From IMG/VR virus record IMGVR_UViG_3300033273_000613, positions 1 to 64,000 of that record: 64,000 nucleotides of DNA; one strand, 5' to 3'. Below the pieces are notes generated by a model. That model searched no databases, was not told the DNA's origin, and saw only the letters and a program-made list of their open reading frames with translations. The stretch is from a virus. Position numbers and translations under genes: made by a program. Position 1 is the stretch's first letter; each line of letters opens with the position of its first letter. This document shows positions 15,001 to 31,000 of this stretch, one piece after another.

Positions 15001-17165
15001 AGTAACTCAGTATCTTTCGGTACTATTTGATCATCTTCTATTTCACCAGACCCACTGTATGTATTAACATCACATAAAAGTCTTACTTTAACATATGGCT
15101 CATTCGGTTCAACATCTGGACAACTATAGACAGGTGGTTGTGAGAAATATTGAATCGGTGTACATCCTCCTCCAGCACAGTAATTATATACACTATTTCC
15201 ATCAGCATCTTCTTCCCAATCACCAGTAAAATTCCATTCACCAACTTCGTACACATTATAATACTCATAAGCGACACCGTTGTAGAATGCTTGAACTAAA
15301 TTTGGTTCAATAGGAAAATCAAATTCTTGTTCATTCCATATTACTGTCATCTCATCTGAAGGTAGATACAAAGTTTGAGGAACTATGTACGGTATATATC
15401 GTAATTCATATTCTACTCCATTGATTTCAAAGTCATTATATCCAGGATTTAATCCAGACTCAGTGTAAGGTAATCCCTCTTGATCTTTTACCGCTAAGTC
15501 AGTACCCCCAGCGGGGATTGCTGCTGTTACAAAACCACCACCATTAATTAGACCATCAAAACTGGTATCATAATATGTTTTTAACCAGTGATCAAGTGTC
15601 CAATTAGAAGCTGCATTCTCGTTATAATAGGACTGTAATGGATATACATCTGAAAAGGCTTGATATAAAACTTGTGATCCCTCACCTACAGCGTCCCTAA
15701 CCTCAAAAAACCAGTGTAATTTATAACATCTATTAAAATATGTTAATGTATCTGGTTGATTCATAAACCCAACTTGGTAGGTATAATCATACTTATAATT
15801 AATCAACCTATTCCAAGATAAAGCACTAAATGCACCTGCTAAGTGATCAGGATTTACAAATGGTGGTTCATTACCTTCACTAACTGGTCCATCCCAGTCA
15901 AGCCAATCAAGGTAGTTATTACTATAAGGAAACCATCCAAGATTTGGAGAATTAGGTAGAGGATTCGATGAATTATAAAAACCTGTTATATCACCGATTG
16001 GATCACCCAAAAAGTTCCATATGACTTTGGGTTTTGTATTATCATTTTGGACATGACAGAAAAAAGGTAATTGTCCAGAAAGATTAGGATCATACTCACC
16101 AAACGGATTAGTATAAAAACTATTACATGGACCTAAAATATTATTCTCTATACCACCAGGTTGAGAGTTACTACAATCAGTGAGAATCGCATAACCTCTA
16201 TAGAATTTGTCGTGCCATTGCCAATCAGTTAAATCGTAATCATTCAACATTTTTTGATTACGAGCAATTCCTAAAGGAGGATATTGGGTTTTACAATTAT
16301 TGTTTTTAGGATTTGTGAAATCTTCTTCATAAGTCCTACAACCAGATCCTTGTATTAAAGAGGGTTTGTCGTCTGATATAACACCTGGTAGATCAAGATA
16401 ATCTGTTTTTTCACTAGATGGTGAATAACCAAGTGATGTAAATGCAAACTTATCATAATCTGTTGGTAGTGAGATACCTAATGGATTATCTTTATTTTCT
16501 GTATACTCTGGTATCTCACCGTTGATATCAGTGATAGTATAACAAGTACTAATTTCAACCTCTTCACCAGTTATCGAATCCCTCGTTGTTTCTCTGACGA
16601 TCCATTTATTACCCCAGTAAAATCTAGGATGAATCGTATATTCCCCGTTTTCTTTTTCTACATAATCAAAGTTGAAATCAAATTCATTGAATTGATCAAA
16701 ACCATAGAAATTAAAACTTGTCTGATTATCCTCAACATAAGTCCACTTTTGTTTACCCTCAGCATTCCACATTGGAGGTAAACTCGGGTGAGGTGCACCA
16801 AAAATAAACTCTTCCTCTGAACCTATAGGGTAAAACTTATAGGTTGGGTCATCACCTTCACCCCAAAAACAGTTTCTTAACTTTACACCGTAGTCATATT
16901 TTTCCGATGTAATATTTTTCTCCGAAGTTTCAGGTATATCTTCAACCCCATTAAGTACAATACAAGTCTGACAATCCGCATATACCGGAATATTAGTGAC
17001 ACTCAATTGGGCTGTGTCTGATTCCTCATCAACAACCCAACATTTTTCATTATAAAAAAAGTATTTACCAACTTCAATGTCAAAAGCAAACTCAAAGTTA
17101 GCAGTACCTCCCGTGACTACACAATTTGAATTTACAATTGAACATTTCCGTCTATAAAGTGCCAT
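1..17165 (-). CDS. Giant Cys-module / Thr-Pro-linker protein, C-terminus outside window
   Basis: One frame is open from the ATG at 17163-17165 to the left edge, 5,721 codons; an in-frame stop at 17178-17180 fixes this start. Residues 1 to about 2,990 are aromatic-, Asn- and Cys-rich with CC and CxxC pairs and almost no Thr/Pro linkers. From about 2,990 onward, Cys modules (a CC pair, a central C[YWF], a late CxxC, a final Cys before PTPT) alternate with Thr/Pro/Gln/Asn strings, the longest about 245 codons. I see no signal peptide, catalytic motif or membrane segment. It follows two glycan-modifying genes and is probably a virion fibre or surface adhesin. The module matches no family I recognise, so function is inferred from composition and from its place in a phage tail region. 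It could also be a non-structural secreted protein. Confidence 0.9.
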   Translation of the reverse strand, partial: MALYRRKCSIVNSNCVVTGGTANFEFAFDIEVGKYFFYNEKCWVVDEESDTAQLSVTNIPVYADCQTCIVLNGVEDIPETSEKNITSEKYDYGVKLRNCFWGEGDDPTYKFYPIGSEEEFIFGAPHPSLPPMWNAEGKQKWTYVEDNQTSFNFYGFDQFNEFDFNFDYVEKENGEYTIHPRFYWGNKWIVRETTRDSITGEEVEISTCYTITDINGEIPEYTENKDNPLGISLPTDYDKFAFTSLGYSPSSEKTDYLDLPGVISDDKPSLIQGSGCRTYEEDFTNPKNNNCKTQYPPLGIARNQKMLNDYDLTDWQWHDKFYRGYAILTDCSNSQPGGIENNILGPCNSFYTNPFGEYDPNLSGQLPFFCHVQNDNTKPKVIWNFLGDPIGDITGFYNSSNPLPNSPNLGWFPYSNNYLDWLDWDGPVSEGNEPPFVNPDHLAGAFSALSWNRLINYKYDYTYQVGFMNQPDTLTYFNRCYKLHWFFEVRDAVGEGSQVLYQAFSDVYPLQSYYNENAASNWTLDHWLKTYYDTSFDGLINGGGFVTAAIPAGGTDLAVKDQEGLPYTESGLNPGYNDFEINGVEYELRYIPYIVPQTLYLPSDEMTVIWNEQEFDFPIEPNLVQAFYNGVAYEYYNVYEVGEWNFTGDWEEDADGNSVYNYCAGGGCTPIQYFSQPPVYSCPDVEPNEPYVKVRLLCDVNTYSGSGEIEDDQIVPKDTELLVKVLSWGETLSLEEVLQINGLNDGSGDLTCKYTRVDGIPVEILDVVSANYINATYVDEGLNNQSAWNAIECPLYYGPYGTSSFWVGTFGAPFGTLNGSRFYGLYETVLEATTIDPYQTTNVEYPIIENPYDQNPFVDYDENFTSPRCRGFNVWRSCVTGRLFRFKVNGYSTSTNDQYIVIKDIDYKPNGPYWASNLAFTDFQYEMPSSDISNGGGWDLFGRTCQFFSTSIDLTDDSDSLTPEEFEGCFTYFVDEFEENQIQNIIINDGPEFKFEQVYDIIFEQLCGSNTCVLPVNNYYGNCYIEPCGDGISNACLSLTTAGGEERTVIVVEHCCQCDPDSMYGPEGNYFGFDRDSYNCEGKLQTYRFATAEQIEQIQNEGGYFSSEAQITQDGVSYGSDFSGLWRLVEVTNISTFFIDSPLHFNILTTGENCDDTLSKLPLGDTGQEAPWFGGECIYEYFQGCNSGNFYHIWSDIWNERGRGSDRRPNLNENGEVIQQFNDFDFNGNNFGWTIQNNYALVNGWLGSGDRKPTTYKLSIPACAYNNVDGFDKLPRPNGNDYGYCDNLWEYYTNYEGTGARGPLYEYNFGPADGTPDGVPFGVLLDENFGSVLTPHSKAYNPGIWEYQGLKGEVNTRSNGSKFGLGSVFPHRAKTYQDCAEPFFDFSNDCSCNDQILINVYGPTPLNWDFDNTQTGNGWSEYYNNTLGQPLVLDFTVPGDATWSGYPTPGSNEPSPNGNFFNETFLYWEHVAGLQVYWTDDDGPNGFTDFIYLEPGATRDVVGNYKSFKYRTGPIAVEDGGAWTENYSGYTCVRSIPIHRADLPKVVMGEPPSGNYGCGVDPSDTPTSYSDKRTYRKSCAYGDPTYNGSKIPVIQVGLGFNRITPVYQYTKDGIDDETARGETLEGFQLINIFNQEVLTIQDCPNINSATPATPNVYSNYFGVFNTEILDFGTQNDDNFAGISCCITGRPYATTQYFYPWELESLPFVRIANIYDVLYKLLYQTGNVVQETQQNICPSPQSDVQCFDYEVVWGGDFTDTQPGKVGVFLSDNAVLSFTGELESPMGIRINRYDLNGNDNYDFLSTIIQNGFQTIRLINSVTEAQIDIWEQEAFWMGSSPSDPTPTQLYVSGIIVGNTTDFGENNYEDFLARVCITPNSNPECYQYPLLTYQVNLQSCCSEDNNIIENVFVYVTPEQAYGLLAQNQDLSPLQLYNNFNTFFNQQPGQYSYLLFENEIDFLSGATVVAYGDFQYTYTDIDIDIVDIPFPFQDNIEYSISTETDTVQDINCYKIVQGSYTPINCGDDLNPTKFVYLQYTPDAPGFWNWQYLEEFGIDYGGISQPFSFPDNCLGTGLLESTTNPLPLCNCLQPWELRRVLVRFKFCCPEIYEEVLCPGTAGRDIDDGGSSECFPEWWYVNVSYDFIINYPVNTVFLMKNPYILQYGADFINSTLQNQSQVEELISSTYGIELPPWIQSGENVGIQHALMTYGGFVGEYDPSYTNLFYGNSNNLSVDTESSIIFDFDNILTWLDDLEEQGAPPIPNTFAYDPKHLYVDQTSSNGPIGYWPIHYRPEQVPAGFDSICEFAFSITNQYGPNWSTIIQGEEYNIQYNDDGTPQCQLAPVLQYRLIEVCCTGEIFVLDITNANEEYFQNYPPFGNVAQIHSIGSTLQSILNIPTPEYNSSCGDVYGVCIKDVTTSYWGNVTNLQQLNVGIIENNKLIFHPNSFTSCEFCNEDECSQLCEIKYYKIQPCCPEFNGTFATPYWVALSFYVNPSTGQAPPDNANSYTICDGVENGVIVGDIRCVSVIEISDEQPVPNVQFKVALNDYTNCSQCIDEAHTIDSLCEVATFRGCNSGDYYILLQSGGGFIQEPLGTVVSKFGIVQQPPTLGNIDTVNIKDEDTCIQASIVPSGVQPEVVVVLAFNPAFNFGISECGQHEECGYTPPPPTIYRLGTFRKCCDLEQTVKLNYPEDWSLLTDFVAVEYDDTCWRFNPSQTALNENSIYDYVDVYFENGCDECTELIDPCPPPEPEYEIVAAVPCCGGTAINVEINTLIEIQEGDGVVVGETCYFLDTNLSSQTPSFGTFDDVIPFLCDNEVCDCGDDVEPEELPVTIELTDCCTGTIPEKIKIPADQLQDVSENGRVYIINGCAFKFRAQVPTSLDEYEFRENWDFANCKASRLIGGYKCSIWELALGSCCDESGGIFGNINVVIPCGPLGIDGLEENWPYNDYSTYLYDFGDGQYCYSIENVSFVDSVGGPVYDEIISSISQFSEDCPSCNELVPCPTQTQTPTPTLTQTPTQTVSNTPTKFTQVWRLKQCCDPDGTFTDLNIGYTFDNIPQQGQSFLYNFKCYYLDTPLQVQDNSIDVIWNNVTHYDDCDECKQENNKNCKSRKLVSCQTGLVYVIVSSQNGVSANLLQFSNGIEQQYYFIDLYNISLNEGDDWFGQETLNSLDSFCFYPVPDSTQADIIIPLDETPIDSTFYSLYVTNVESCQSSLCNAPTQTASFTPTQTPTQTPTPTQTQTPTQTQTQTGTQTPTQTPTTTYSQTPTQTQTPTQTQTPTNTTTPTFTPTPSSSLTPGASPTQTRTQTPTQTPTSSNTQTPTQTQTPTQTSTVTNSPTKTETPTKTPTQTKTPTQTQTPTQTETPTQTPTPTSSLSEVNIIVKDCCSETIEKQIRIHSQNLSWVDDNKCFVIDDCCFFASSIGGNGEDGIYLSYDFEDCTTCTAPVNYPCNSWLLGLEDCCDGTTTSLFFNIGCGDELIVNLGTHVNISGTCYKIIEYAPILIAAPYLSPDNFHNSCDCSEDVTPCPTQTASFTPTNSQTPTQTPTNSNTPTNSFTPTPTTTTTQSRTPTKTPTPTTTPTQSIILVEAIACCNTVLGEQIIESFVLDNYVPNQDLETFSVPSYPSTCWQVLSYSVVIPPGATVETASFSIDCNACRLALNLNQNCDSVTVQGCTSGQIFTIYVNGEQVVEPIGTVISFSEILSSWDSCGTFIEYNSNYSVVSIEDYEYANSCNDLVCDPGTQTPSNSQTPTQTPTQTQTPTKTPTPTLSPTPTLQWITIECTDTCPGLENSIILLRVPYNSEIVGSFVSLDGNCYEVTNVVETDLFYPTYTGPFHDNLPECSDFVGTPCPTQTRTQTPTNSQTPSQTRTQTPTPTNTKTPTQTKTPTQTKTPTQTPTQTQTPTFTPTETRTPTPTPTQLFRVVAAVNCCDGLAKLFLVETEIIESYGGVSGIGVGNFPIGVSTDPSDSDSPCWYVVEVPFPLGFYFPGLYKLTNFNYGLQDNDSPNCYICNEQNGGGTCGQAFVPDLDDPSYINSRNALLEVSPSPTQSVTTTPTTTPTLTNTPSVTNSSTPTPTTTPNLRTYLALPLCEDQSGTPIGEPQYVNMNEGTSVGSESIILISGVCYQVTIDTGTYDTSYQYYSLTNYTGATECISENTCPSATPVVTPSVTPTLTPTLSITPTNSPTVSVTPTIPYEYWRIDNCCNEYTEFARITPKTVTVGSIVSDGTFCYTVEEKVDYVSNPIGVNIVEGATSCSDCNCPTSTATVTPSVTPTQSISATVTPSVTPTNTVTPTNTQSITPTKSLTATPGLTKTPTPTQTPSQTQTPTVTPSVTNTLTVTPTTTITPTKTVTKSPILSSTPTNTQTPTSTTTPTTTPTITPTQTVTTTKNLVLGVNATSIIAFKCCGGSQTYFFNVPNTVVEGQTFEYGNECYYITKYFVNDNESYEFIYGEIFADCDTCFLDSSTTPCPTSTPTTTNTQTPSNTPSNTTTNTSVLTQTPTSTSTQTPTNTPTNTTTPTVTSTNTASPVYNYIGCIIEDCYGNGVVLTATTLSSNSIGDVGVVNYGDYSGQCFTIITQLPSILSNDVFVVNESYSGSCSTCIASNPGPTPTPTVTTSVTNSPTTTQTPSITPTKSITPTQTPTPTNGLRTVVVKSCCTTKLGGNTVSQQLVNTSNNAQVDDVIRIQNSCYVITEILRVVLSDLDFYPIAFVHVEGENTCTICLSDDETVPCPTYTPTPTPTVTSTFTLTPTTTYTYTPTNTNTVTNTPTVTKTVTVTPSLTISLTTTITPTVTITNTPTNRPGSLLPKAPFRIDGIDVGLTACCPGTNGTVVTANRTLFVPDEITDTLQVGDTISLENGVTKDGKLYKCFVITSLNLAFVPEQSDFIFNYYGPEGSEQCKASESEECHSQYCEPCQLPGTFIQFTNFGTNIIEFRPVGQVIKVVHGGFIDYPTFNNDDNNCFTYVDSETVASGSLRTYESIEVVDECNTVGCYGYVPTTPTASFTPTTTQTPTQTITETPTQTPTPTITKTSTQTPTVSNTPTNTAAITYKTVYARLDCSGYGDNFIPYNIPDDGINYQSIYYVFNCWTIFNGNAPFNEYAIQVGFENLYLDSESCGSVNATTPCPTVTASFTPSPTSSITKTPTPTQTTTPTETPTNTPSNTNTTTPTPTTTLTSTKYLELYKCESCCDGETASFHFFVDTIDLVDVNGNKSFEYNGRCWRATEGPYVQQGDLPIITTVYENCVFCYNATGHYCTPTPTETVTSTPTNTVTSSQTPTNTETPTNTPTVSNTPTNSVTPTSSITPTNTQTPTNTQTVTPSITPTFTPSVTPSITPTNTITNSNTPTNTPSITPTNTQTNTPTPSNTRTNTPTPTPSKSSQATPEPTSTATETPTPTSSITPSNTVTPSITPSNTQSATPSVTPSITPTFTPSVTPSITPTTTTTYTNTPSTTPSNTPTNTPSNTQSVTPSTTLTLSITPSQTQTNTLTPTSSVTVTPTKNVSRYIAESCCPGDGTTIVLSDAGLDITGNTYFVVYEGQCYELVDEATVPVSNLSYLVPNLYTDCIDCANQNIIASQCPTPTPTNTPAPTESITPTPTNSATPTQTKPIVYKTVGAIIDCPGSSFEGNVFYFNIPDDGISWGALFYFTTCFKITGDTTYQSYWVEIPYDDLYITLSECETEEPSTPCPTQTATVTPSITSSQTPSVTPSITPTTTTTYTNTPSTTPS
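683..1417 (-). repeat. Long uninterrupted Thr/Pro linker block in the giant protein
   Basis: About 245 consecutive codons encode only Thr, Pro, Ser, Asn, Gln, Val, Ile and a few other residues, in a TPT-x-TPT rhythm with no Cys. The composition resembles mucin stalks and is expected to be extended and unfolded. It is the longest such block in this gene. Confidence 0.9.
817..893 (-). repeat. Exact direct repeat, second copy
   Basis: Identical to bases 1-77. The interval between the copies holds a complete linker block plus Cys modules, so recombination between them would add or remove an in-frame unit of 272 codons. Confidence 0.9.
7060..7525 (-). repeat. Thr/Pro/Gln linker block in the giant protein
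   Basis: About 150 codons of TQTPTQT-type sequence, richer in Gln than the linkers near the left edge. It separates two Cys-module groups and lies close to the junction between the linker-poor N-terminal half and the linker-rich C-terminal half. Confidence 0.85.
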
Positions 17166-17217: not shown

Positions 17218-19629
17218 TTATGATTCTTTTCTGAGACTTGCTTCGTAGTGATCAAATCTATCATGTTCTGTTGGTGATAAAAGAAGAATCCCTGGTTTAA
17301 TTACATTCTTTTTTGTCTCTTGAAACATGAATGACATCCAAGTTTGTTCGTGAGGAGAAGCCCATTTTGTATCTAAAAACATTTTTTTATTTCCTGTTTT
17401 AGAAACTAACTGTGGCCAATTAGAATAATAAACTTCACCATCAGAATATGGTAATCCATTATGTATTTTTATATTATTAAATACAGTCCTAGGAGCATTA
17501 GGATCTAATCCTATCCTAGGAAGTTTACTATAGTCTGGCCAATACTCTTCTCTGACGGATTGTGGTACATTATACCAAGACCACTGGGTCGAGTTGTCAC
17601 CATAGAACTCACTAAATGATAGTTTCAAAAAGTCAAAATCTTCTTTATTAATTATTTCTAAAATTGTATCATATAACTTAGCGTGATGTCTTGGGAAACC
17701 ATTCCTACATGTACTATCTTTTCCAGAATAAAAGAACATGTCATCTTCGAAGAATAAATAATAATCATATTCATTTTCATCTGCATGTTCAGCGACAAAT
17801 TGCCTTCCACCACAGACACCTAAATTTTCATCCATCTTTAAATGAATTGCATTATATTTGTCACACAAAATTTTATATTCATTATATGTACTTAAATCTG
17901 TTGAGTTATCGATCAAGTATATATCAGGTTTTTGCAAAAAATTCTGATCATAATACAACATAGACTTAAACAACGTTTCAACTTGTTTAGGACTATTAAA
18001 AGTAAGTATATATAAAGCAACTTTGTTTACATCTAAATCTGTATTTCCACCAATAATTCTCTTTTTTTCAGATTTTACCTCGTGTTCATTGTTTTTTAGA
18101 TCTTCGAAAAATTTTGATAATAAACCATTATAGTTTATTGAATAGTACTCATATAAACTAGGATTAGTATATAAAAGAATTGAAAAGAGTGACTCTTCTG
18201 TACCCATATATCCATTACCCAATGTGGTCGCCATTAATCCATAATATTCGTTATTAAATTTTTCAATAGCATCTTTTGATCCACCAAAGAATCCTCCTCT
18301 ACACACTTTATCAACTTTAGCATTTGTTAATTCGCACATATACTTATAGTCAAATCCATGTATTTCATTATCAGCCTCATATGGGAAAGCAACAAAAGTA
18401 ATTTTATTATTATCCTTCAAATTTCTCAAAACTCTGTCGTGAGTAAAATATCCAGGATGTACAGTATTTGAAATACCACCATCTAACCAGTATAATCTTT
18501 TGGAATTGAATTTGTCAAAAATCCTAGCATCATTAAGTAAAAATGGTTTTGACATAACTAACGGATTATACATTTCTAATCTACTCTGAGTTGAATCAAC
18601 TAACCATCCAGCTTGATTTTTCCATTCAGGATTATTCCTTATCGATTGAATTTCATCATACATATGATTTTTGAACCAATCTTGAGTCCTTTTTATAAAT
18701 TGAGTATTTTCAGTAGTCCTATTTGGATTATCAAATATTAGTTCACTCAAGTCATCATCACCGAATATAATCATGTTGTTCGGTATTGAAAGTATTTGTT
18801 TAAATTTTTCTATATAATGTTTATACGATCTGGACCACCCTTCACTAAGTTCATCTCTCTTAATATTCCATATACCCGTGACAATAGTAATATCACTATC
18901 ATCACCTTCTTGATTGACCACTTTTTCACTTTCTTGTGTTATTTCAATTTCTAAAGAGTCTTGTAATCTATTAGTCAAAATTTTATTTGACTTACCTTTA
19001 ACAATAAATTTACCTAGTTGACCACAAACTTCCTCTACATCGTAATGAATTCCTCTTTCTCTAAAAAAGTCTCTAATAGCCGCATCTACACCAGGTAGAT
19101 CATGTCTCAAATAATCGTGAAAAAATATCATCCCTCCCTCAACCATTCTATCATACACTTTTACTAAACTATCATATATTGAATCATAAAAATCACCATC
19201 TAAAAATGCAAAAGATATTTTTTCTGGGAGATCTTGTTGTTTAATATCTTTAAACCAACCTTTGACTATTCTATCAGGTGGATTGAGATTATTCTGTCTA
19301 AAGTTGGATACTAATACGTCTTTGGTAGTCTTTAAAGTAAATGGTCTCCATCCAGTATTTTCTTCCCATTCACTTAATTCTGGTAAACCTTCAAAAGAAT
19401 CATAGACATATAACTTTTTATCACTTTGGTTAGTGTCTAACGTTTTTCTGAGATACTTGCTTGATTCTCCAACATAACATCCCAATTCAACAACGTCACC
19501 ATCTAAATTACTTTCTAAAACTGTATTTAAGTTGATCACTAGGTGCATTATTTGCTCGTGGTTTATAATACTACCATCAACTTTTTTATTATGAAACGTT
19601 AAAATTTCAGAAATTTTCCCACTCATCAT
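17218..19629 (-). CDS. Three-domain glycan-modifying protein: TylF-like methyltransferase, HtrL/YibB-like and GT2-like glycosyltransferase
   Basis: Residues about 1-215 resemble TylF/MycF sugar O-methyltransferases: a SAM-binding ELGCYVGESS at about 46, DSFEGLP, FLDGD, and an HDY where the family usually has DDY. Residues about 243-530 resemble the HtrL/YibB (WlaTC) family, with WLDGG, a GGFFGG element near 444 and a conserved EE. Residues about 534-803 resemble a GT-A/GT2 transferase, starting ALYILTFN, with an acidic FFEDD near 626. The frame begins with two consecutive ATGs in an A-rich leader lacking a Shine-Dalgarno sequence. It starts 8 bases after the GT60-like gene and precedes the giant Thr/Pro protein. 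Sugar extension plus O-methyl capping on one polypeptide is the likely role; donor and acceptor are unknown. Domain calls are by motif reading. Confidence 0.85.
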   Translation of the reverse strand: MMSGKISEILTFHNKKVDGSIINHEQIMHLVINLNTVLESNLDGDVVELGCYVGESSKYLRKTLDTNQSDKKLYVYDSFEGLPELSEWEENTGWRPFTLKTTKDVLVSNFRQNNLNPPDRIVKGWFKDIKQQDLPEKISFAFLDGDFYDSIYDSLVKVYDRMVEGGMIFFHDYLRHDLPGVDAAIRDFFRERGIHYDVEEVCGQLGKFIVKGKSNKILTNRLQDSLEIEITQESEKVVNQEGDDSDITIVTGIWNIKRDELSEGWSRSYKHYIEKFKQILSIPNNMIIFGDDDLSELIFDNPNRTTENTQFIKRTQDWFKNHMYDEIQSIRNNPEWKNQAGWLVDSTQSRLEMYNPLVMSKPFLLNDARIFDKFNSKRLYWLDGGISNTVHPGYFTHDRVLRNLKDNNKITFVAFPYEADNEIHGFDYKYMCELTNAKVDKVCRGGFFGGSKDAIEKFNNEYYGLMATTLGNGYMGTEESLFSILLYTNPSLYEYYSINYNGLLSKFFEDLKNNEHEVKSEKKRIIGGNTDLDVNKVALYILTFNSPKQVETLFKSMLYYDQNFLQKPDIYLIDNSTDLSTYNEYKILCDKYNAIHLKMDENLGVCGGRQFVAEHADENEYDYYLFFEDDMFFYSGKDSTCRNGFPRHHAKLYDTILEIINKEDFDFLKLSFSEFYGDNSTQWSWYNVPQSVREEYWPDYSKLPRIGLDPNAPRTVFNNIKIHNGLPYSDGEVYYSNWPQLVSKTGNKKMFLDTKWASPHEQTWMSFMFQETKKNVIKPGILLLSPTEHDRFDHYEASLRKES

Positions 19630-19637
19630 TTTTTAAA

Positions 19638-20906
19638 TTATAAATTTCCAGTTAATCTTTCACACCACCCTTTTTCTGTGGAGTATGGCCAAACAACCCA
19701 ATATGCCGGTTTTTCAGTAATATTAAATTCTCTCCAAATTTTACAGTATCCATCGGGATCCCTCATCATCCTATCAATTTCTGACTTATCCGCATCTTTT
19801 CTGTAAATGGTTTTGTCATCACTATCATGGAATGCAACAACCCAGAATTCATAATCCTTTTCCGGAACAGAATCATAACCTACATCAATACAATGTTTAT
19901 ATATTGTTGCAAAACTCTCTAACCATGATTCTTCATCACCGTAATGATCAATTCCTGGGTTTGGTGGATAGTGCTTGTCTAGAGTATATTGTTGAATACC
20001 TCTTTTTCCAAAGTGTAATCCTGAATATTCCTCATATTCTTGAAGTGTTCTGACAGAACCAAATCCATATTCACCATCATGACCTTCTTGTTCCTCACCA
20101 TCCATCGCAAAAAGTTTCCTGTTAGTTGCGTGAGATTTTTGGTTTCTACTTACCCATTGCTTATCATCGTCCCACTGTTTTGTACGACCTTTTCTAGTAT
20201 ATTCGTGCCATATGAGAACTTTATGTGGGTGGAATAAATCATACCCCCAAGTGTAAGCCCTAGCAGCTATTGAAATTTCTTCTCCATGGAAATAATATTC
20301 TGGATTGTGTTGGACCTCTGTTGAAAACTTACCAAGAGTAAACGCGTAATGTGCAGAATAGAATCTAGACGGTACTGGAGTATCTAATTCTTGCCAGTTC
20401 GGTATTGTTTCTGGTAAGAAGAATACTGCACCTTCCGGTATAAATCGGTCAAACGCCATTCTCCAGGGTTCTTGTACTCTAGCTTGAGGATCATTGTCTG
20501 GATCAAAAGATGATACGTAAGCAGTTAATAAAGGTTTTGGAATTCCCTGTTTTTGTAACTGTTTTACCATATCAATCATTTCAACATCCCAATTAGGTGC
20601 AAAACGCATGTGTGAGTCAATTTGTAATGTATATGTTTCACCACTATACACTTGTTGTACTTGGTGTCTTGCCCAACAGACTCCTTTACTTTCTTGGTAA
20701 GGTACATCGATAATTCTAAATCTTTTATCTTTAGAATACTTATCTAAATTATCAAAACCATCTTCTGGATGGTATTGTCTACAAACACCGATGACCAAGT
20801 TTTTAGGTCTTTTAGCGTTTTTAATCATATCTTCAATTGTCTTAACTAATTCAGGATCCCTGTAAGACGCTATTTGTACGAATATTGTTTCTTTTTTTCT
20901 AGGCAT
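19638..20906 (-). CDS. GT60-like polypeptide GlcNAc-transferase homologue
   Basis: This 422-residue protein matches the family containing Dictyostelium Skp1 Gnt1 and trypanosome mucin-type polypeptide alpha-GlcNAc-transferases (Pfam GlcNAc, CAZy GT60). Visible hallmarks are FVQIASYRDPEL at residues 9-20, KGVCWAR near 73, the donor/metal-binding LQIDSHMRF near 93-101 followed by NWD, a later IWHEYTR, and YGFGSVRTLQEYE toward the C-terminus. Known members transfer GlcNAc from UDP-GlcNAc to Thr or hydroxyproline in proteins. There is no signal peptide or membrane anchor, so it should act in the cytoplasm. It lies between the 2,340-residue and the over-5,721-residue Thr/Pro-linker proteins and 8 bases before the three-domain gene. 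Self-modification of those linkers is inference; host glycan modification is the alternative. Confidence 0.88.
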   Translation of the reverse strand: MPRKKETIFVQIASYRDPELVKTIEDMIKNAKRPKNLVIGVCRQYHPEDGFDNLDKYSKDKRFRIIDVPYQESKGVCWARHQVQQVYSGETYTLQIDSHMRFAPNWDVEMIDMVKQLQKQGIPKPLLTAYVSSFDPDNDPQARVQEPWRMAFDRFIPEGAVFFLPETIPNWQELDTPVPSRFYSAHYAFTLGKFSTEVQHNPEYYFHGEEISIAARAYTWGYDLFHPHKVLIWHEYTRKGRTKQWDDDKQWVSRNQKSHATNRKLFAMDGEEQEGHDGEYGFGSVRTLQEYEEYSGLHFGKRGIQQYTLDKHYPPNPGIDHYGDEESWLESFATIYKHCIDVGYDSVPEKDYEFWVVAFHDSDDKTIYRKDADKSEIDRMMRDPDGYCKIWREFNITEKPAYWVVWPYSTEKGWCERLTGNL

Positions 20907-20939
20907 TTTATTATATTTTACTTAGAAAAATTCGTAAAA

Positions 20940-20947
20940 TATAAATA
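20940..20947. promoter_or_regulatory. TATAAATA element upstream of the GT60-like gene
   Basis: Plus-strand TATAAATA (coding-strand TATTTATA) inside the 100-base gap 20907-21006, the longest gap in the window, 33 bases before the start codon. The same gap has a 6-bp AT stem with a GCCT loop (20985-21000) just after the upstream gene. Confidence 0.35.
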
Positions 20948-21006
20948 ATTGTAAAGTGATTATTGAATCTAAAAACTAGAAAGTATAATAGCCTTATTAT
21001 CCACCA

Positions 21007-24000
21007 TCATTTTTCAGGACTACTAAAACTATTAAAGAATTGTATACCATCACCTATATGAGCCAAACCATGATAATAAGATTCAAAATTAACAGTTGTG
21101 AATGGTTGAGTAATATTAATAGTTACATCACCATAGACAAACAAATACTCATTACCATCTATACCGTCTTTTAATCCTCTTTCAAATTGACCCGAATATG
21201 TGAATCCTGGTGTAAATCTATTATAGAATGCAATTGCGAAGTCTGCCTTTACATCTTTAATTGTAAATACTCCTAAACCAACCCCATATTCAGAATTGTA
21301 ACCACCACCATTAAATGAATATCTATATCCCTCATCACCAAATAAGATTCCAACTGTAGTACTAGTTGTTAATGGAATCACATTTGTTAATTGAGTCGGT
21401 GTCATACTAGGTGTCAAAGTAGGTGTTGGTGTCTGATTTGGTGTAGATGAAGGTGTTATCATATTTTCTTGATAATAAGTCGGTAAATAGTCATTACATG
21501 AGTCACAGTCTTCGAACTTGATTACATTGTCAAGATATTCATATCCCGGAATCTCACCAGGAATTTCTTCAATAACCCACCAACAATATAAATTATATAT
21601 GATTCTATCATTAACACTTAGATCACCACTAATATTTACTATCTCATAATTATTATTTTCACAGCTAAACAAGACATATGACTTATAACAAGAAACTTGT
21701 TCGGTACAAGTATAACAATTATTAAAATTAGTTTGATCAACATATTCATAACCAAAGAACGGACCAACAGCCAAACTTTCAAATAACTCATAACAACCAG
21801 CCTCACCAGTAGCTATTGTACCAACTGGTAAATATTCACTAGCATTTACATAAGTATATTCTGATGTACAACATGATTTAGCCAATCTTAATCTAAACGA
21901 AGGAGTTGAAGTTGGTGTTTTAGTAACAGTCACTGATGGTGTAGGTGTAACCGTTGGTCTTATAACCCTATTTGAACTATAACAAACATCGCAATCAGTA
22001 TACCAACTATTTACACTAGGAGCCTGATTATTTCTAGGAGATTCCAATTGCATAACTCGTTTGTAACAAGTTGAAGAATCCGGATCTTTAACAACACCAT
22101 TAACCGGGAAGTCAGCAACTATATTAAAATACTTGTACTTTGTGTCATCATCACAAGAAACACATAAATAATAGAGATATGAATAACGTGCCGCGGTTGT
22201 ACTAGCAGGTGTTCTTGTAAGTGTTTTAGTAGGTGTCAGAGTTGGTGTAGTAGTAGGTGTAGGTGTGAAACAGACATTATCATTCAAACAATCACTAATC
22301 GTATTTCCTGTAAAGTATTGTGGTGTAAATAGTTCCGTACCATTACCTCCATTTATTCCCACTAAAGTAACACATTCACCACTAAATACACCCACAATTC
22401 CAAAGTTAACTGGTATCTGAGCAACTGCACTGTAAATATTTCCACTACATATACCACTCAATTGTACTTTAACTAGGTTTGGTGTTGAAGTTGGTGTTGG
22501 TGTAATATCTTGTCTAGTTATCGATGGTGTTGGACTATTAGTAACTGTCGGAGTTGGGAACGGAGTCTTTGTAATTGTTTTAGTTGGCGTAGCAGTTGGT
22601 GTGACACTAGCTGTTGGTGTTGGTGTAACTCCATCACAAGTTAGATTATTCAATTGATAACATTGTGAACAGTTATCATAAGAATCAATTACATATGGAT
22701 ATATTGAATTTGAGTTACCACTAAATTGGAAGAATGGATCAGGAAGTTGTGTATAACAATCTGAATCATGATAGAATACTTTATACTCATCAGCAAAATA
22801 GTATGATTCAGGTACATTGAAGTAGTATAAGTCATTATAAGTGAGACCTGTCTGATCTGGTAGACAACAATTTTTAATAAACGCAGTCAAAATAAATCTA
22901 GTACTAGGACTTACAGTAGGTGTAAGACTAGATGTAATAGATGGCGTAGGAGTTGTCGTATTAGTTGGTGTTTGTGAAATTAATGGTGTTGGACATGGAT
23001 AATTTTCAGAACATTGAGTCAATCCTGTGAAATTAGTATTACTAGCATATAATTGATTAAAAGGTTCAATAGATGGTACTATTTGTAAAATAGTGAAACA
23101 CCGTTGAACTGTGTAAGTTAAATACGGGTAATCTAATATTACAATATCACCAACTTGTGAATTCTGACTAACATTACCTATTACATAATTGACTGGTGGA
23201 CAGTTTCCACTCAATGCTGCAATAACCCATTCCATTGACTTACTAGGTGTTGGTGTATTTGTTAATGATGTAGTAGGTGTCACTGATGGTATAAACGGAA
23301 CATTGGTAGGTGTCGGAGTAATCGACGCAGTTGGCGAATTCGAAGGTGTGTTAGTTGGTGTCAATCCCGGGGTAGCAGTTGTAGATGGTGTAATAACTGG
23401 GGTTGACGAATTTGTATTACTTGGAGTTACTGTTGTTGTACTTGTAACTGTATTTGTATTAGTTGGTGTTACAGTTCTAGTTGGTGTTACCGAAGGTGTC
23501 ACACTACTTGTAGGTGTATTAGTCGGTGTTGTTGTTGGTGTACTACTATTTGTAGGTGTAGGACTAATACAAGTATTTCCAGTAAATGTACATGGATAAA
23601 TTCCTGTGGCATATGAACTATTATAACCATCAGTAATATAAGTAAACAAAGTGAAACATTGTGCACTGAACCCAACAGTATCACCAGTTGTTAAACCTAA
23701 ATGACTACTAATGTTAACACCCGCATATGTTAATGAACATTCATCATAAGCAACCCATTGTACAAAATCCGGTGTCGGACTTAGTGTTGGTGTAGGTGTT
23801 AGGGAGGCATTAGGTGTAACTGTAACCGTAGGTGTCACAGTATTTGTCGGTGTATTTGTTGGTGTGTTTGTTGATGTTGGTGTATTGGTAGGTGTGGGTG
23901 TACTTGTCTGGAATGTAGTTTTAGTTATTGATGGTGTTGGTGTATTTGTAGGCGTATTAGAAGGTGTTGCGGTATTTGTTGATGTTGGTGTAGGCGTTTG

Positions 24001-27000
24001 TGTAGATCCCTCTGAAGGTGATGGTGAAGGTGTTGGAGTTGAAGTTGAAGTTGGATCTGGAGTTTGATCGATAGACTTTGAAATCGTTGGGGTAACAGTC
24101 TGAGAATTTGTTGGTGTATTAGTAGGTGTCTGAGTTGTTGTCGATGTGTTTGTCGGTGTTGGTGTAGTTGTTTGTGAACTTGTTGGTGTATTTGTAGGTG
24201 TTACCGATGTTGTTGGACTGTTTGTTGGCGTATTTGTTGGACATACTCCATGTGCATTCTGACACTGAACTACAGTGTCATAATATAGACCATAATATGT
24301 GGGTAAGGATGGTGCATCATAACTATATACTTCAGTAATAGTATAACAATCATATTCAACGCTGACGGTTTTTCCTGATGACCCATTAAGTATATTATAA
24401 TAAATTACATCATTACTATCACAAACATTTACTAATTTACCTAGGACAATCGAAGTTGTTGTCGTAGGTGTTGGTGTCGCAGTTTCAGTATTAGTTGGTG
24501 TTGGTGTTGGAGTTAGACAAACCACAGCACTTGTACAAGTCTCACAATCGTCATACACCCCAAAGATAGTCGTATCATAATTACTATTATATGGGATTAC
24601 CTCAACTACCTCATAGCAATTATTTTCCTCTATGTTCCAGTAAACACGCCCAGGTTTAAGATATAAACCAAAGTTTGTGTATCCGTTGAAGAATGTATAA
24701 TCACCGTAACAACAAGATCTCATGACGTAACTCTGTAAACCTCTAGTTAACGAAGGTGTAGGAGTCTGACTCGATGTTGGAGTATTAGTTTTAGTAATCG
24801 TTGGTGTCTGTGATACCGTAGCTGTCGGTGTGACTGTTGATGTGACAGATGGTGTAGGTGTTGGTGTAAGACATGGATGTGCTGAGAGACATTCAGAGTC
24901 GCTACTAAATTGGAAATTAACTGGTCCCAAAACCTCTCCAAGAGGGACAAATTCATCTGAGAATATGTAGGTAATCTCCCAACAACTATTACTATAAAAA
25001 CCGAAATTCCCTATAATAGGGTCAGTAGCAGAATAGAAGACTTCACCAAACAATTGATAACTAGGAGAACCAGAAAAACATATTGGAAACGCATAAACCA
25101 ATTTTAATGTACTCGTCCTAGTTATTGATGGTGTTACACTATTAGTTGGGGTATTTGTAGCCGTATTAGTTGGTGTTTGAGTTTGTGTTCTTGTAGGTGT
25201 TGGTGTATTACAAACATTAGTATCGGTACACTCTGAACAAGTATCAAAATTAGTCGAAAGAGCAATCTCTGAAGTACCAGTATATCCAGTAACTTGTGTA
25301 GTCAATGTAAAACACTGTGAACTGACCTCTACGATATCACCCACTTGACTTCCAAATGGTGCAGATACAAATTTTACATCACCATTACAACATCCACTTG
25401 CACTCCACACATAATAAGTTTGAGTTCTAGTTACTGTAGGTGTCTGAGAAGTTGTTGGCGTATTAGAAGGAGTTACAGTCGCTTTAGGTGTCTTTGTAAC
25501 CGTTTGTGTTGGTGTCAATGTTGTTGTAGGTGTTGGTGTCAAAGTGGGACAAGGTTCCCTATCAGTACATGCAGTACATGCGGTATAAGATACGTACTCA
25601 CCACTTTCGTAATCAATTAAATCATAACTGTTACCCGTAATTTCGATGATTGTATAACACTCTCCCTGATACCTAATAACTGTACCAATTGTGAAATCAT
25701 TTGGTGCCCTTAATAATAATTCATCCGCGTCTCCTTGGAAATCTGTACAACAGCTTATTACCCTTACACCTCTGGTGTCTGCACTAGCTGATGGTGTTGG
25801 TGCAGGAAGTTTACCAGAGTCAACACTAGAAGTTGGTGTAGGTGTAGGTGTTTGAGACCTAGTTGGTGTATTTGTCGGCGTGTTTGATGATGTCACTGTA
25901 GGAGTTAGTGTGCTTGTTGGTGTCTGTGTCGGCGTTACACATACATTTTCTGCGATACATACATCACAGTTTTCGAAATGTTCAGTATCAACGTAATTAC
26001 CATCATTACAAGGACCGTCATATAAGAATGATAGGTTATGAAAACATTCACCTGAAAATATTACAGTATCATTATAATTGAAAATAGAAGGTACTGATAA
26101 AATTTTTGGATTACCACTACAGCACGATCTAGCAGCTACACATTTATAAAATATTGTCGATGTGGGTGTCGCGGCGGGAGTTTTAGTTACAGTCTTAGTA
26201 GGTGTAGCTGTTTGTGACGGAGTAATACTTGGAGTCTGGGGTGGGGTCTTAGTGTTAGTAGGAGTATTAGTTTGTGTACTTGTTGTTGTAACAGTCGCAG
26301 TTGGTGTTGGGGTATTAGATGAAGATATAGTAGGTGTTAAATTAGGAGTGACACTATTTGTAGGTGTAGGTTGGGGTGTTTTAGTAATTGTCGGTGTCTG
26401 AGTGACTACAGGCGTTTTAGTTTGTGTCGGTGTGTTAGTAGGTGTTAAAGTGTTTGTAACACTTACCGTTGGTGTTTGTGTAATTGTACCAGTAATAGAA
26501 GGTGTATTAGTTACTGTAGGTGTTTGTGAAGGATCAGGTGGTCCACAAGGTGAAAATTGTGTACAGTATTCACAGTCTTCAAATATCGATGTTATTTGTG
26601 GATACTGATTGTTTACTTCCTCATCAAAAATAACTTGTATACTATAACAATCACCATCGAAGAATATTGATTTATCAATTTCTGGATTTAAAAAGGTTGG
26701 TACATTAACCGCAATCCATTCTGTTACATCATAACAACAATTTTTTACAGCAACTACTGTTTTGTAAACAATTTCTTGTGTTGGTGTTAAAGTTTGGGTT
26801 GGGGTCGGAGTAGGTGTACATGGATTTTCAGCTTGACAAAGATTACAGTTTAAGTAAAAATTATCGATCTCTGGGTAAACAGTACCCTCAAAAACCGTAT
26901 CAGGTAGTGGAACATTCATGAATGTGTAATAACATTCATTTTCATATTCGAAATAAAATGTATTGTTTAGTTGATTCTCACTTACATCTAATTTAAAGTA

Positions 27001-28029
27001 GATATCAGACTTTTCACCTGTACAACATTTGACGGCTGAAAAATAGAAATAATCCCTACAAGGGTACCTTTTCCTACAAGATTTACAGCTAGCATATACA
27101 CCATTATTAGTTATTGTTGGATATGTACTTATTTCATATTGTGCAAATAGTTCTATTATATTGTAACATGTATTATTATAGGAAACACTCAATGGATTGA
27201 AATCAGTACTAGTAACCTGAACATTAAAATAATGTACTTGATTAGTTGTGCCGCAACATTCCGTAGCCTTGTAAACAAATGTACAGGGATTACGTTTTAG
27301 GCAAGATCGACAACTGACGGCAAAATCAGTTTGATCTATATAAATGTAACCTGGAGTCTCGAGTGGTGATATTTTTTCGATAACTTCCCAACAACTACCA
27401 CCGTTACTAAAAATTTGATTACTTTCTGCTGGCGATGCGATATTGAAATATAGAGTGGTTTTATGATCACAACATAATCTAGCAAGGACAGTATAATAAT
27501 CATCAGGACAAGGACTAAATGCTAAACATGATTCGATGTTTTCATAAGCAGAATTTATAAATGGATGACGATAATCCATATCCAATGGACCCGCCGATTT
27601 CAACCAGCACTTGTCATCATAAGAAACGTAATTACCATAAAGATTTGAAGGTATGTTTAAAAATAAAGTTTCACTCTCACCTTCCAATTGACAAATTGAA
27701 TTGAATAAAAATAAATCATACTCCTGATTCAGTGGTGTTGGTGAAGGTGTTACATCTGGTCCTCTATTGGCGTTTCTTATTATCTCATCTTGGTCATATA
27801 CTACAATATTTTTAGAGATAACATTACCACAATCTGACTCATTACTTTTAATAAATAAAGTATATGGTGTACCCTGTGTAGAACCATCTAAATTAATACT
27901 TACACCATAAATAAGCTCATCTCGTGTAAAATTTTCACCAATTGGCACTGTTTCGGTAGACCCCGTAAATATATCAAACGGACCTACAGCGTTTGAAGAT
28001 AAAGTTAACCTTACTATTATTTGTGCCAT
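21007..28029 (-). CDS. 2,340-residue protein with about 18 Cys modules on Thr/Pro linkers
   Basis: Residues 1 to about 85 form a beta-rich N-terminal domain paralogous to that of the 1,922-residue protein (both start with an IIxRLTxxSNAxGPF pattern). Then come about 18 Cys modules; the first four abut directly and later ones are separated by TPT-type linkers of 15 to about 155 residues. A typical module has a beta-like strand, CC, an F/V-rich segment, GxCY-x-I, then an acidic stretch with CxxC and a final Cys before the linker. Several copies have lost one of the CC cysteines (CF, CD, CS). The last about 120 residues are linker-free and Gly/Tyr/Phe-rich. It is the direct upstream neighbour of the GT60-like gene. 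Likely a rod-like virion surface fibre; no enzyme motif is seen. Confidence 0.9.
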   Translation of the reverse strand: MAQIIVRLTLSSNAVGPFDIFTGSTETVPIGENFTRDELIYGVSINLDGSTQGTPYTLFIKSNESDCGNVISKNIVVYDQDEIIRNANRGPDVTPSPTPLNQEYDLFLFNSICQLEGESETLFLNIPSNLYGNYVSYDDKCWLKSAGPLDMDYRHPFINSAYENIESCLAFSPCPDDYYTVLARLCCDHKTTLYFNIASPAESNQIFSNGGSCWEVIEKISPLETPGYIYIDQTDFAVSCRSCLKRNPCTFVYKATECCGTTNQVHYFNVQVTSTDFNPLSVSYNNTCYNIIELFAQYEISTYPTITNNGVYASCKSCRKRYPCRDYFYFSAVKCCTGEKSDIYFKLDVSENQLNNTFYFEYENECYYTFMNVPLPDTVFEGTVYPEIDNFYLNCNLCQAENPCTPTPTPTQTLTPTQEIVYKTVVAVKNCCYDVTEWIAVNVPTFLNPEIDKSIFFDGDCYSIQVIFDEEVNNQYPQITSIFEDCEYCTQFSPCGPPDPSQTPTVTNTPSITGTITQTPTVSVTNTLTPTNTPTQTKTPVVTQTPTITKTPQPTPTNSVTPNLTPTISSSNTPTPTATVTTTSTQTNTPTNTKTPPQTPSITPSQTATPTKTVTKTPAATPTSTIFYKCVAARSCCSGNPKILSVPSIFNYNDTVIFSGECFHNLSFLYDGPCNDGNYVDTEHFENCDVCIAENVCVTPTQTPTSTLTPTVTSSNTPTNTPTRSQTPTPTPTSSVDSGKLPAPTPSASADTRGVRVISCCTDFQGDADELLLRAPNDFTIGTVIRYQGECYTIIEITGNSYDLIDYESGEYVSYTACTACTDREPCPTLTPTPTTTLTPTQTVTKTPKATVTPSNTPTTSQTPTVTRTQTYYVWSASGCCNGDVKFVSAPFGSQVGDIVEVSSQCFTLTTQVTGYTGTSEIALSTNFDTCSECTDTNVCNTPTPTRTQTQTPTNTATNTPTNSVTPSITRTSTLKLVYAFPICFSGSPSYQLFGEVFYSATDPIIGNFGFYSNSCWEITYIFSDEFVPLGEVLGPVNFQFSSDSECLSAHPCLTPTPTPSVTSTVTPTATVSQTPTITKTNTPTSSQTPTPSLTRGLQSYVMRSCCYGDYTFFNGYTNFGLYLKPGRVYWNIEENNCYEVVEVIPYNSNYDTTIFGVYDDCETCTSAVVCLTPTPTPTNTETATPTPTTTTSIVLGKLVNVCDSNDVIYYNILNGSSGKTVSVEYDCYTITEVYSYDAPSLPTYYGLYYDTVVQCQNAHGVCPTNTPTNSPTTSVTPTNTPTSSQTTTPTPTNTSTTTQTPTNTPTNSQTVTPTISKSIDQTPDPTSTSTPTPSPSPSEGSTQTPTPTSTNTATPSNTPTNTPTPSITKTTFQTSTPTPTNTPTSTNTPTNTPTNTVTPTVTVTPNASLTPTPTLSPTPDFVQWVAYDECSLTYAGVNISSHLGLTTGDTVGFSAQCFTLFTYITDGYNSSYATGIYPCTFTGNTCISPTPTNSSTPTTTPTNTPTSSVTPSVTPTRTVTPTNTNTVTSTTTVTPSNTNSSTPVITPSTTATPGLTPTNTPSNSPTASITPTPTNVPFIPSVTPTTSLTNTPTPSKSMEWVIAALSGNCPPVNYVIGNVSQNSQVGDIVILDYPYLTYTVQRCFTILQIVPSIEPFNQLYASNTNFTGLTQCSENYPCPTPLISQTPTNTTTPTPSITSSLTPTVSPSTRFILTAFIKNCCLPDQTGLTYNDLYYFNVPESYYFADEYKVFYHDSDCYTQLPDPFFQFSGNSNSIYPYVIDSYDNCSQCYQLNNLTCDGVTPTPTASVTPTATPTKTITKTPFPTPTVTNSPTPSITRQDITPTPTSTPNLVKVQLSGICSGNIYSAVAQIPVNFGIVGVFSGECVTLVGINGGNGTELFTPQYFTGNTISDCLNDNVCFTPTPTTTPTLTPTKTLTRTPASTTAARYSYLYYLCVSCDDDTKYKYFNIVADFPVNGVVKDPDSSTCYKRVMQLESPRNNQAPSVNSWYTDCDVCYSSNRVIRPTVTPTPSVTVTKTPTSTPSFRLRLAKSCCTSEYTYVNASEYLPVGTIATGEAGCYELFESLAVGPFFGYEYVDQTNFNNCYTCTEQVSCYKSYVLFSCENNNYEIVNISGDLSVNDRIIYNLYCWWVIEEIPGEIPGYEYLDNVIKFEDCDSCNDYLPTYYQENMITPSSTPNQTPTPTLTPSMTPTQLTNVIPLTTSTTVGILFGDEGYRYSFNGGGYNSEYGVGLGVFTIKDVKADFAIAFYNRFTPGFTYSGQFERGLKDGIDGNEYLFVYGDVTINITQPFTTVNFESYYHGLAHIGDGIQFFNSFSSPEK
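23780..24245 (-). repeat. Thr/Pro linker block in the 2,340-residue protein
   Basis: About 155 codons of Thr/Pro/Ser/Asn sequence without cysteine. It contains a 101-base segment nearly identical to one in the 3,440-residue gene 21.6 kb away. Confidence 0.88.
23881..23981 (-). repeat. Near-identical 101-base segment shared with the 3,440-residue gene, copy A
   Basis: Matches 45480-45580 with a single difference (23951 G, 45550 A), which makes a Pro/Leu change. It encodes the linker stretch around [12 protein letters not shown]. Synonymous sites are conserved as well, which indicates recent copying or gene conversion. Confidence 0.9.
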
Positions 28030-28069: not shown

Positions 28070-31000
28070 TTACAAATCAAAGTAATTTTTTAAATTGTTA
28101 ACGTAATATTGAATTATTTGACCTTCATAGCTTGTAAATTTATTAGCAAAGTTTAATTCACAATCAGTAACTCTCACATTTTGAGTACCTAAAGTATCAC
28201 TTAATTTGTGATAATAATCTTTAGGTTTAGTCTCAAACAGACCATTTGTTGTTGTTATTGTGACACTTAGATTTGATATTATATAATACCAACTACTTGG
28301 CGTATATGGTGACAATCTTTCAATTTCAAATTGAATACCAAATCCTTCTTGGTTATTATAATCGAATAATGCCAATCCACCGTTAGAATTTGTGAGGTTT
28401 GTATTAACACTAATAGCCTGATTATTTACTAGACTATTTATACCGTTGGTGTATGCTAACCAACTATCACCATTTTGATTAACCGCAGAAACTCTTAGAA
28501 TTGATAGGTCATCAGCAATAGTGTCATTATAACTCCCCTTAAGACTAAAAGAAAGGTTAATATTAGTTATCGATGAATTAGTAAATTGATTATCTAATGC
28601 AAATTTTTGATAAATTATATTAGGTCTTTTATCATCCCCTGCAACACTCATGAAATTTTGATCGTATTGTGGGTCAAAAATGAAATCGTTAGATGTAGTG
28701 GTAGTGTTAATTAAATTAAGATTATATTTTAATCTATTTGGTTCCAAATAATTCTGATCGATAGGTCCTAATGTATTTCTAACAGAACCACATGTGTACG
28801 TTCTAAATCTACGATAAGACATATAAGCTGCAGCACCTTCAGTCTCATCATAATACGACTGATAGTCACCACATCTTAAACATTCACTAAAACGTGGATT
28901 TGGTAAGTTATTATCTAATGAATTTAGTTCAAGTTCAGGATATAATGTTTTCCATCTTGATCCAGAACATAGGAAAGTATGGTGTAATCCAAAAGTATGA
29001 CCTAATTCGTGTACACAGACTTCATCTAATTCACTATATATTAATTGATTTACCGAACCAACATTTAATTCTAAGGTAAATCCTGGTAATTCCGCGATCC
29101 CTAAAATAGGTGAACTAGTTCCCTGTGAATTTGAGATTATTATACCTTTATGGAAACCCGTTTCCATAATACCACCGTAATTGTCGATAAAGTAACTATG
29201 GTATTCTATTCTATCTAAACCATCTAAATCTGGGTTGTCCGCAATAAATATTTCATACTCGACATCAAATAAGATTTCGTCAGTATTTTCGATGGCTTCA
29301 ACGATTCTTTCACCACATTCCGTAGCTACTTGAAGTATCAAGTTCTCCGAAGCAAAACTTAGAATTTCTTGCGCTACGTCAATTCTAATCTTTATTGTAC
29401 CATCGAATATCTGATTTTCTTCTGGATCATCAACCCCACTTGGAATTGGTACTACTGGCGGATCAATATCATCATCCTGGTTATCATAGAAACAACCTAA
29501 TGAATAACATTCGTATCCAAATTCATATAATTTGACAAAGTCATAGACAATTTTATCACCGTTAGAATAAAATTTATCTAGTAAATTTTCACCCTCATAT
29601 GGGAATGTTTCTTTTATAGGTTGACCTCTCCACCAATCATGGTACACAAAAATTCCATTTTCATAAACATCATTGTAACCAACTACTTTATATTTTGTCT
29701 CCCAGTTTTTAACCTTTTCATTATTATATGAAAGAGCTCTGATCTGTGTAAATTCACCATAATCTGCAGGTTCTCCTTTTAATTTTTGATACGTAGTACC
29801 TGAGACTATATCACCAATAGTAAAAATACCTAATGGACCAGTCTGAACTTGTTGTGTTCGATGATTATAGAAATCAGTCAACGGGTGGAAAACATAAATA
29901 TTACCCGTAGTTAAACCACTTAGATACAAATATCCAAATCTTGAAACATCACATAGATTTTTATGTATCTCACACAAGAAATTTTCATCACTTAAATCAT
30001 CTAGCGATCCAATTCTATGAACATAATCCGGATATGATGCTAATTCATCTAAATGTTCCCAGTCTTGACCTTCACCTACACCGATTGCAATTATTTCCTG
30101 GTGATAAACATATGTGTCAAATAAACCATAAGTAGTATTAACAATATTTGTTGGATCTAAAGCATTTCCTAAATATCCTGCATATGGTGATTTCATACCT
30201 TCTACTATAAATCTTGTTTGGAACCAAATCCTTGATGGGTCGTTTTCAGTATTGTTTGTACCTAAAGGAGATTGATTATCATTCATTCCCCAATTTAGAT
30301 GTTCAGGATTTGTTATTAGTATTACAAGCTTTTTCGCATTAGAAGCATTATTTTTCCAACCATAGCCTTGATTAAATCCCATAATAAAAGGTGTAGTGTT
30401 ACCATAATCTTCCGTTGTTTGTCCACCTCCTTCGTCTAATGAAAAGTTAGATTGGTCACCACCCTTAGTATAATTTTGCAAACTAAAGAATCCTGCTAGT
30501 TGTTCATTAATCCTCATTAAACCAGCAGGTAAATTATTTCCATATCTATTTTTAGTTATTGGGTCAGTATTTTTTGTTAAATTTGTTCCTTCGTCCTCAA
30601 TACCTATACCCCACTCTTCATATTGTACCTGTAAATCATCCATCTGTTGGAAAAAACTAAAATAAGATGTGACTGGACCAAAGAAATTCATCCACGATTG
30701 GAATTGGTGGTATAAATTTTCGTAAAATGTAACACCCGCAGTTCCATCATAGAAAGGTTTGAAAGGTAATAATCCTCCTTTGAAGTCCCTTGTAATATCA
30801 GTATAAGGTGGATGATTTCCAGTGTCATAATATGTACTCACATCACCGAAAAACTGAATCGTTTTTTGCCAATCTTCAATACTTGTTAAATTTTTGAAGT
30901 ATTGTTTATTTATTGTGAATGGTTGGCTAAATTCGTTTGTAGTATCATAAGTGAAGAAAACTGACGTTCTATCCGGATCTGTAGCACCTGTAAATGGCGA

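Follow-up and report, generated by a model that had tools for sequence, protein, structure and literature searches.

What is known of protein O-glycosylation in bacteria comes mostly from periplasmic en-bloc systems, together with a few dedicated cytosolic ones. The general system of Bacteroidota places O-glycans on Ser/Thr within a D-S/T-x motif. In clostridia, the Pro/Thr linkers of cellulosome scaffoldins bear O-glycans with reported O-methylated GlcNAc and furanosidic galactose; these scaffoldins are a precedent for the type of acceptor only, and their enzymes were not compared with GT60. Animal mucin-type ppGalNAc-transferases form family GT27, and protist family GT60 includes mucin-type enzymes of Trypanosoma cruzi and Dictyostelium as well as the Dictyostelium enzyme Skp1 Gnt1. 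The latter is cytosolic, and the step that follows it is carried out by the GT2 domain of a bifunctional protein (PMC8724618). According to PMC12619734, mycobacteriophage glycosyltransferases have been linked to glycans on the phages' own capsid and tail proteins (Freeman et al. 2023, cited therein), where they sit at the C-termini of capsid and tail-tube subunits.

The locus described here resembles the protist systems in its PF11397 (GT60) enzyme, in the proposed placement of a first sugar on a Thr-rich disordered protein and in layout, since its YibB-GT2 pair recalls the GT2 step of the bifunctional Skp1 protein. Unlike the protist enzymes, it is phage-encoded, shows no secretory-pathway anchor and has its own C-terminal beta-sandwich, its activity is inferred, and the proposed extenders on the phage side are YibB/GT2, GT25 and others. 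In contrast to the mycobacteriophage case, the initiator is a GT60 homologue and the proposed acceptors are the Thr/Pro linkers of giant fibres. Relative to the Bacteroidota system, the D-S/T-x motif is almost absent and the proposed action is cytosolic and sequential.

The window analysed corresponds to bases 1-64000 of a 71,688-base IMG/VR virus record, and its large genes all lie on the minus strand. We confirmed the coordinates previously given for the enzyme genes and their neighbours, which are all on this strand. The GT60-like gene (19638-20906) is separated by 100 bp from a giant gene at 21007-28029 and by 8 bp from a gene encoding a three-domain fusion (17218-19629), which lies 52 bp from a second giant gene at 3-17165. 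A Baseplate J-like/baseplate wedge protein is encoded at 62381-64000 on the minus strand (PF04865 E 5.8e-7; phrog_219 E 6.8e-16), and this gene and a gp25-like gene belong to the same strand block as the GT60 cluster and the giant proteins, which supports the assignment of a tail/fibre module. The remainder of the record encodes baseplate, helicase, recombinase and ribonucleotide-reductase genes, a content indicating a tailed-phage genome with the giant proteins inside its tail/fibre block. Linkage of glycosyltransferase genes to structural genes is one criterion for phage-encoded virion glycosylation, and it is fulfilled here by baseplate and giant fibre-like proteins on one strand block.

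The initial annotation had proposed that the product of 19638-20906 is a GT60 homologue and had named fold prediction and a profile search as checks, with a lack of GT60 similarity in the latter as grounds for refutation. The 422-aa protein matched PF11397 (GlcNAc, GT60) with E 4.3e-70 and 237 bits, where the cut-off is 21, as well as the 'glycosyltransferase' family phrog_24687 (E 5e-167), and the PF11397 profile was matched too by homologues from phage XacN1, from a second GT60 clade and from Paraburkholderia. Phage GT60 homologues are thus already known as sequences through a PHROGs family; no NCBIfam model matched the ORF. An AlphaFold2 model built from an alignment of 79 homologues (mean pLDDT 94.2, pTM 0.88) presents a GT-A domain at about residues 1-300 followed by a C-terminal beta-sandwich. 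When this model was compared with the PDB using Foldseek, the top 45 matches were animal GT27 enzymes, including GalNAc-T4, T2, T1 and T10 (best E 2e-10), and the GT27 catalytic-domain fold was matched with a TM-score of up to 0.51 by query length. The GT27-like fold and the profile match together uphold the GT60 proposal. Searches of PDB sequences with the protein and its profile returned nothing, and only the fold comparison ties it to GT27. Against viral models, the best fold matches were Caudovirales 'Glycosyltransferase, GlcNAc' proteins of uncultured phages, with a Pandoravirus protein ranking lower.

A DSH motif (residues 97-99; 20610-20618, minus strand), which we take to be the counterpart of the GT27 DxH motif, is a candidate nucleotide-sugar/metal-binding site on the basis of its conservation: in alignments of 81 and 79 phage and bacterial homologues, D97 and H99 show no or almost no variation. 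The protein meets the criterion of a GT-A fold with a conserved DxH-type motif. The C-terminal beta-sandwich (residues 325-422; 19641-19934, minus strand; AlphaFold2 pLDDT 90) is a possible acceptor-binding domain, a function that is inferred only from the model. A fold search with these 98 residues gave no PDB match at E<=0.001, so that no ricin-type lectin domain was recognized, and we rejected membership of GT27, for which such a C-terminal domain is a criterion. By profile and predicted fold the protein meets the requirements for GT60, its enzyme activity being inferred only; that it uses UDP-GlcNAc to add GlcNAc to Thr or hydroxyproline residues of a polypeptide is likewise an inference from family and gene context.

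The adjacent fusion of 803 aa (17218-19629, minus strand) had been annotated as a methyltransferase joined to two glycosyltransferases, and Pfam agrees with this description. Its TylF-like O-methyltransferase domain (residues 20-201; 19027-19572; PF05711 E 1.5e-28) is followed by an HtrL_YibB domain (residues 245-495; 18145-18897; PF09612 E 1.9e-13, NCBIfam YibB E 5e-17) and a weakly supported GT2/TAGT-like domain (about residues 541-686; 17572-18009; PF00535 E 0.003), all on the minus strand. The match of this last domain to the TET-associated glycosyltransferases (PF20691, E 0.001) is below the family cut-off, and its homologue in locus L003 matches PF00535 with E 2.4e-6. YibB and GT2 homologues were found in all 28 of the 28 GT60 loci of the window's clade, among them those of XacN1 and RAS14, two jumbo phages in culture, and in none of 103 random phage loci; the only two matches on the control side came from loci picked for Thr/Pro that themselves carry GT60. 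The TylF domain is rare (2 of 70 representatives), and other GT60 loci encode a different O-methyltransferase, GT25, GT10, GT8, a PLOD-type glycosyltransferase, UDP-galactopyranose mutase or a carbamoyltransferase. We infer that extenders and caps are exchangeable around a constant initiator. The earlier proposal that the phage brings its own initiator, extender and O-methyl cap is therefore strengthened for initiator and extender by the conserved YibB and GT2 partners; the cap is less well supported, and glycosylation itself has not been demonstrated. The phage-encoded UDP-galactopyranose mutase lies near GT60 in one locus (L357:12000-13103) and in five further GT60 loci, suggesting furanosidic galactose in some of the glycans.

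Thr/Pro-linker proteins do flank the enzymes as the initial annotation stated, but the window encodes four rather than two of them, all on the minus strand. The protein at 21007-28029 (2340 aa) combines Cys-rich beads with 12 linkers (792 linker residues, 37% Thr and 19% Pro), and that at 3-17165 has at least 5721 aa, being incomplete where it runs off the record edge, with 17 linkers (1184 residues, 40% Thr). A third, of 3440 aa (39075-49397), has 9 linkers totalling 691 residues; these three are proposed acceptors. The fourth, of 1922 aa (28070-33838), contains three Thr/Pro linkers, all of them short, and weakly matches metzincin-like proteases. Thr residues next to Pro had been put at thousands, which is too high: we counted 848 across the five giant proteins, of which about 700 fall within linkers. 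The scarcity of Asp holds (20 in about 2800 linker residues), as does the misfit to the D-S/T-x motif, which occurs once in the same residues. Metzincin-like HExxHxxGxxH sites with weak Reprolysin/Matrixin matches are present in the giant proteins at 28070-33838 and 34533-39044, which are perhaps virion-borne proteases.

We then asked how often GT60 genes and Thr/Pro proteins occur together. Viral loci were chosen by GT60 sequence alone, retaining the best 80 of 445 viral-contig matches, and an ORF counted as Thr/Pro if its T/P-dense stretches added up to at least 30 residues. As a control we took 103 viral loci selected with a random 15-mer, without matching either habitat or genome size. A Thr/Pro ORF was present in 73 of these best 80 GT60 loci and in 9 of the 103 random loci (Fisher p 4e-32, uncorrected for relatedness, the loci being mutually related), often 50-150 bp upstream of GT60 on the same strand. 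In random phage contigs, 9 of 861 ORFs (1%) were of this type. After dereplication at 90%, 53 of 70 loci had a Thr/Pro ORF within 10 kb, and in 36 of 70 it was the direct neighbour, against about 2% expected; with clustering at 80%, direct neighbours remained in 15 of 42. The association was also recovered in the reverse direction. Among 45 viral records selected by a (TP)4 DNA pattern and, for nearly all, a Thr/Pro ORF, 11 contained PF11397, compared with none of 49 random records; when only records of at least 55 kb were considered, these figures became 11 of 20 and 0 of 11.

Gene order differs between clades. In the window's clade the Thr/Pro gene lies upstream of GT60, whereas in a second clade, which was retrieved separately and shares about 40% identity with the window enzyme, a Thr/Pro gene of about 535 aa is mostly downstream. 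In a 292-kb relative (L353), all 35 (TP)3 matches fall at 60.8-64.3 kb, flanking GT60 at about 62.8-63.9 kb, with every array within 3.5 kb of the gene. Twelve loci with full flanks lacked a Thr/Pro ORF inside 10 kb; for at least six of these, other parts of the record encode proteins with Thr/Pro or Ser/Thr/Pro linkers or arrays. Five fragments of GT60 phages, 48-136 kb in length, show no Thr/Pro protein, and the rule is therefore strong but not absolute. The predicted co-occurrence in related phages, which had been set in advance as a check, was thus borne out in both directions, with exceptions. Some proteins near GT60 (L068:1989-4169, L021:8765-9940 and L340:9203-9937) contain SprB-repeat, legume-lectin-like or laminin-G-like domains, which fits with adhesins and with Bacteroidota hosts.

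A scan of bacterial genomes identified GT60 in many phyla. For most of the 80 bacterial GT60 loci, the surrounding 10 kb on either side show no Thr/Pro protein, and high-GC bacterial ORFs whose Thr/Pro runs overlap GT60 (L424, L442) were left out of the counts. In Burkholderiales, the neighbours of GT60 are an RHS protein, in one case a PAAR-like protein, and a VgrG spike whose C-terminus bears a repeat tail. One such locus (L431:15084-17573) encodes a tailed VgrG beside GT60 with the RHS gene between them, and 13 further loci are of this kind (L422, L426, L427, L429, L430, L433, L435, L436, L440, L444, L452, L542 and L543), the repeat unit varying among species. The repeats include (TP)n, (TEPPP)n, (SEEPPP)n, (TPDE)n, (STPEP)n and (TTETPPP)n, among others; they always combine Ser/Thr with Pro, and some tails have Ser instead of Thr. 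A Ser/Thr-Pro repeat tail was found in 14 of 14 GT60-linked type VI secretion (T6SS) VgrGs and in 0 of 36 other VgrGs, a tailless set that includes a 64%-identical paralogue from one of the GT60 genomes. Among 59 Paraburkholderia species, a tailed VgrG orthologue occurs in exactly the four that have GT60.

Five other GT60-adjacent Thr/Pro proteins (L400, L406, L446, L470 and L475) have twin-arginine-like N-termini, as judged by eye, which fits with cytosolic modification preceding export; the L400 protein also has a Por secretion tail at its C-terminus. A possible twin-arginine (Tat) motif in L441 was discarded because it sits upstream of the gene. A soluble cytosolic enzyme could reach its substrate in each of these settings, be it the assembly of phages, that of the T6SS or export by Tat; the picture is consistent, although inferred. 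In L446 (7468-9882), GT60 is fused to radical SAM and PqqD-like domains and is followed by the Thr/Pro protein with the twin-arginine-like start; L475 agrees with it in length and layout, and both are possibly peptide-modification systems. In Sphingomonas MAGs (L441:6385-9993 and L442), the direct neighbour of GT60 is a large protein that has Pro/Thr linkers and an Rv2525c-like glycoside-hydrolase domain.

It is possible that the GT60 cluster instead modifies host LPS or capsule, masking receptors, or the phage DNA, and that it lies beside the fibre genes only through a shared variable host-interaction region. Glycosyltransferases often adjoin tail genes, the GT2 domain weakly resembles a DNA-directed glycosyltransferase, and some GT60 loci lack a Thr/Pro protein. 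DNA glucosylation and serotype change are also given as the usual roles of phage glycosyltransferases in a paper on moraphages (PMC12619734). However, the closest solved folds are polypeptide transferases, and the Thr/Pro gene is linked to GT60 across several separate clades with differing gene order. In addition, GT60 tracks the Ser/Thr-Pro tails of VgrGs and not their untailed paralogues, a setting in which neither DNA nor a receptor has an evident part. We consider this alternative unlikely, without discounting it.

Pro/Thr-rich linkers are common as unmodified spacers. The linkers might therefore be plain flexible spacers, with GT60 acting on a few Thr residues elsewhere in the fibres or capsid, and 34 of the 45 Thr/Pro phage records, most of them fragments, indeed lack GT60. 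This gives no account of why it is the tail and not the core of VgrG that distinguishes GT60-linked VgrGs, and we regard it as very unlikely. A Skp1-type route, in which GT60 acts on linker hydroxyproline after a prolyl hydroxylase, can scarcely be credited: a GT60-related enzyme does modify Skp1 hydroxyproline (PMC8724618), Pro is abundant in the linkers and a 2OG-Fe(II) oxygenase (PF13640) occurs in 4 of 22 GT60 phage records, but this family is absent from the window's 71.7-kb record and from the other 18 of 22, with the reservation that these are fragments and that hosts could supply one.

We therefore favour, at a probability of about 0.74 and without glycopeptide data, a soluble, cytosolic and sequential mucin-type O-glycosylation module with which the phage modifies the Thr/Pro linkers of its own fibre or adhesin proteins. 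Its GT60-type enzyme would place the first sugar on Thr, and perhaps Ser, of these disordered, Thr/Pro-rich linkers as they are produced in the same infected cell; judging from the family, this sugar is probably GlcNAc, with UDP-GlcNAc as donor. The YibB and GT2 domains of the fusion would lengthen the glycan and its TylF domain would O-methylate it. Linkers coated in this way may form stiff, extended and protease-resistant spacers that separate globular binding domains. Family, fold, conserved motif, gene order, the two-way association and the conserved partner genes are observed, and we infer from them the sugar's identity, the modified residue, the order of steps, the methyl cap and the mechanical role. 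The linkers are inferred to be the acceptor from association only, though one that is strong and replicated across several gene contexts. The initial interpretation as a whole is largely supported at the level of sequence, with no chemistry behind it so far.

Cultured phage XacN1 offers a point of contact with virion biochemistry. Its ORF334 is a GT60 homologue, and ORF350, 12 kb away, encodes a 655-aa Thr/Pro protein. At least two glycoproteins are reported in XacN1 virions, and the authors suggest the phage's two glycosyltransferases, ORF328 and ORF334, as their source (PMC5852040); the text does not state which virion proteins are glycosylated. A link between GT60 and Thr/Pro repeats, VgrG tails or Tat proteins was not described in the literature that we searched, which left out most subscription papers.

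More broadly, GT60 may define a cytosolic mucin-type O-glycosylation found across prokaryotes and phages, often with YibB and GT2 partners, whose acceptors are disordered repeats rich in Ser/Thr and Pro, namely the linkers of giant phage fibres, T6SS VgrG tails and Thr/Pro segments of surface proteins exported by the twin-arginine route, a generalization that we favour only modestly. If true, phages and bacteria would share a GT60 module marking Ser/Thr-Pro repeats. It would then become testable how phages make fibres that are very long and yet stable, why odd repeat tails occur on some contractile spikes, whether viruses of bacteria carry mucin-like brushes and what relation the initiation of mucin-type glycans in eukaryotes has to the prokaryotic enzymes. 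The family would also provide soluble enzymes that may start O-glycans on simple repeat peptides.
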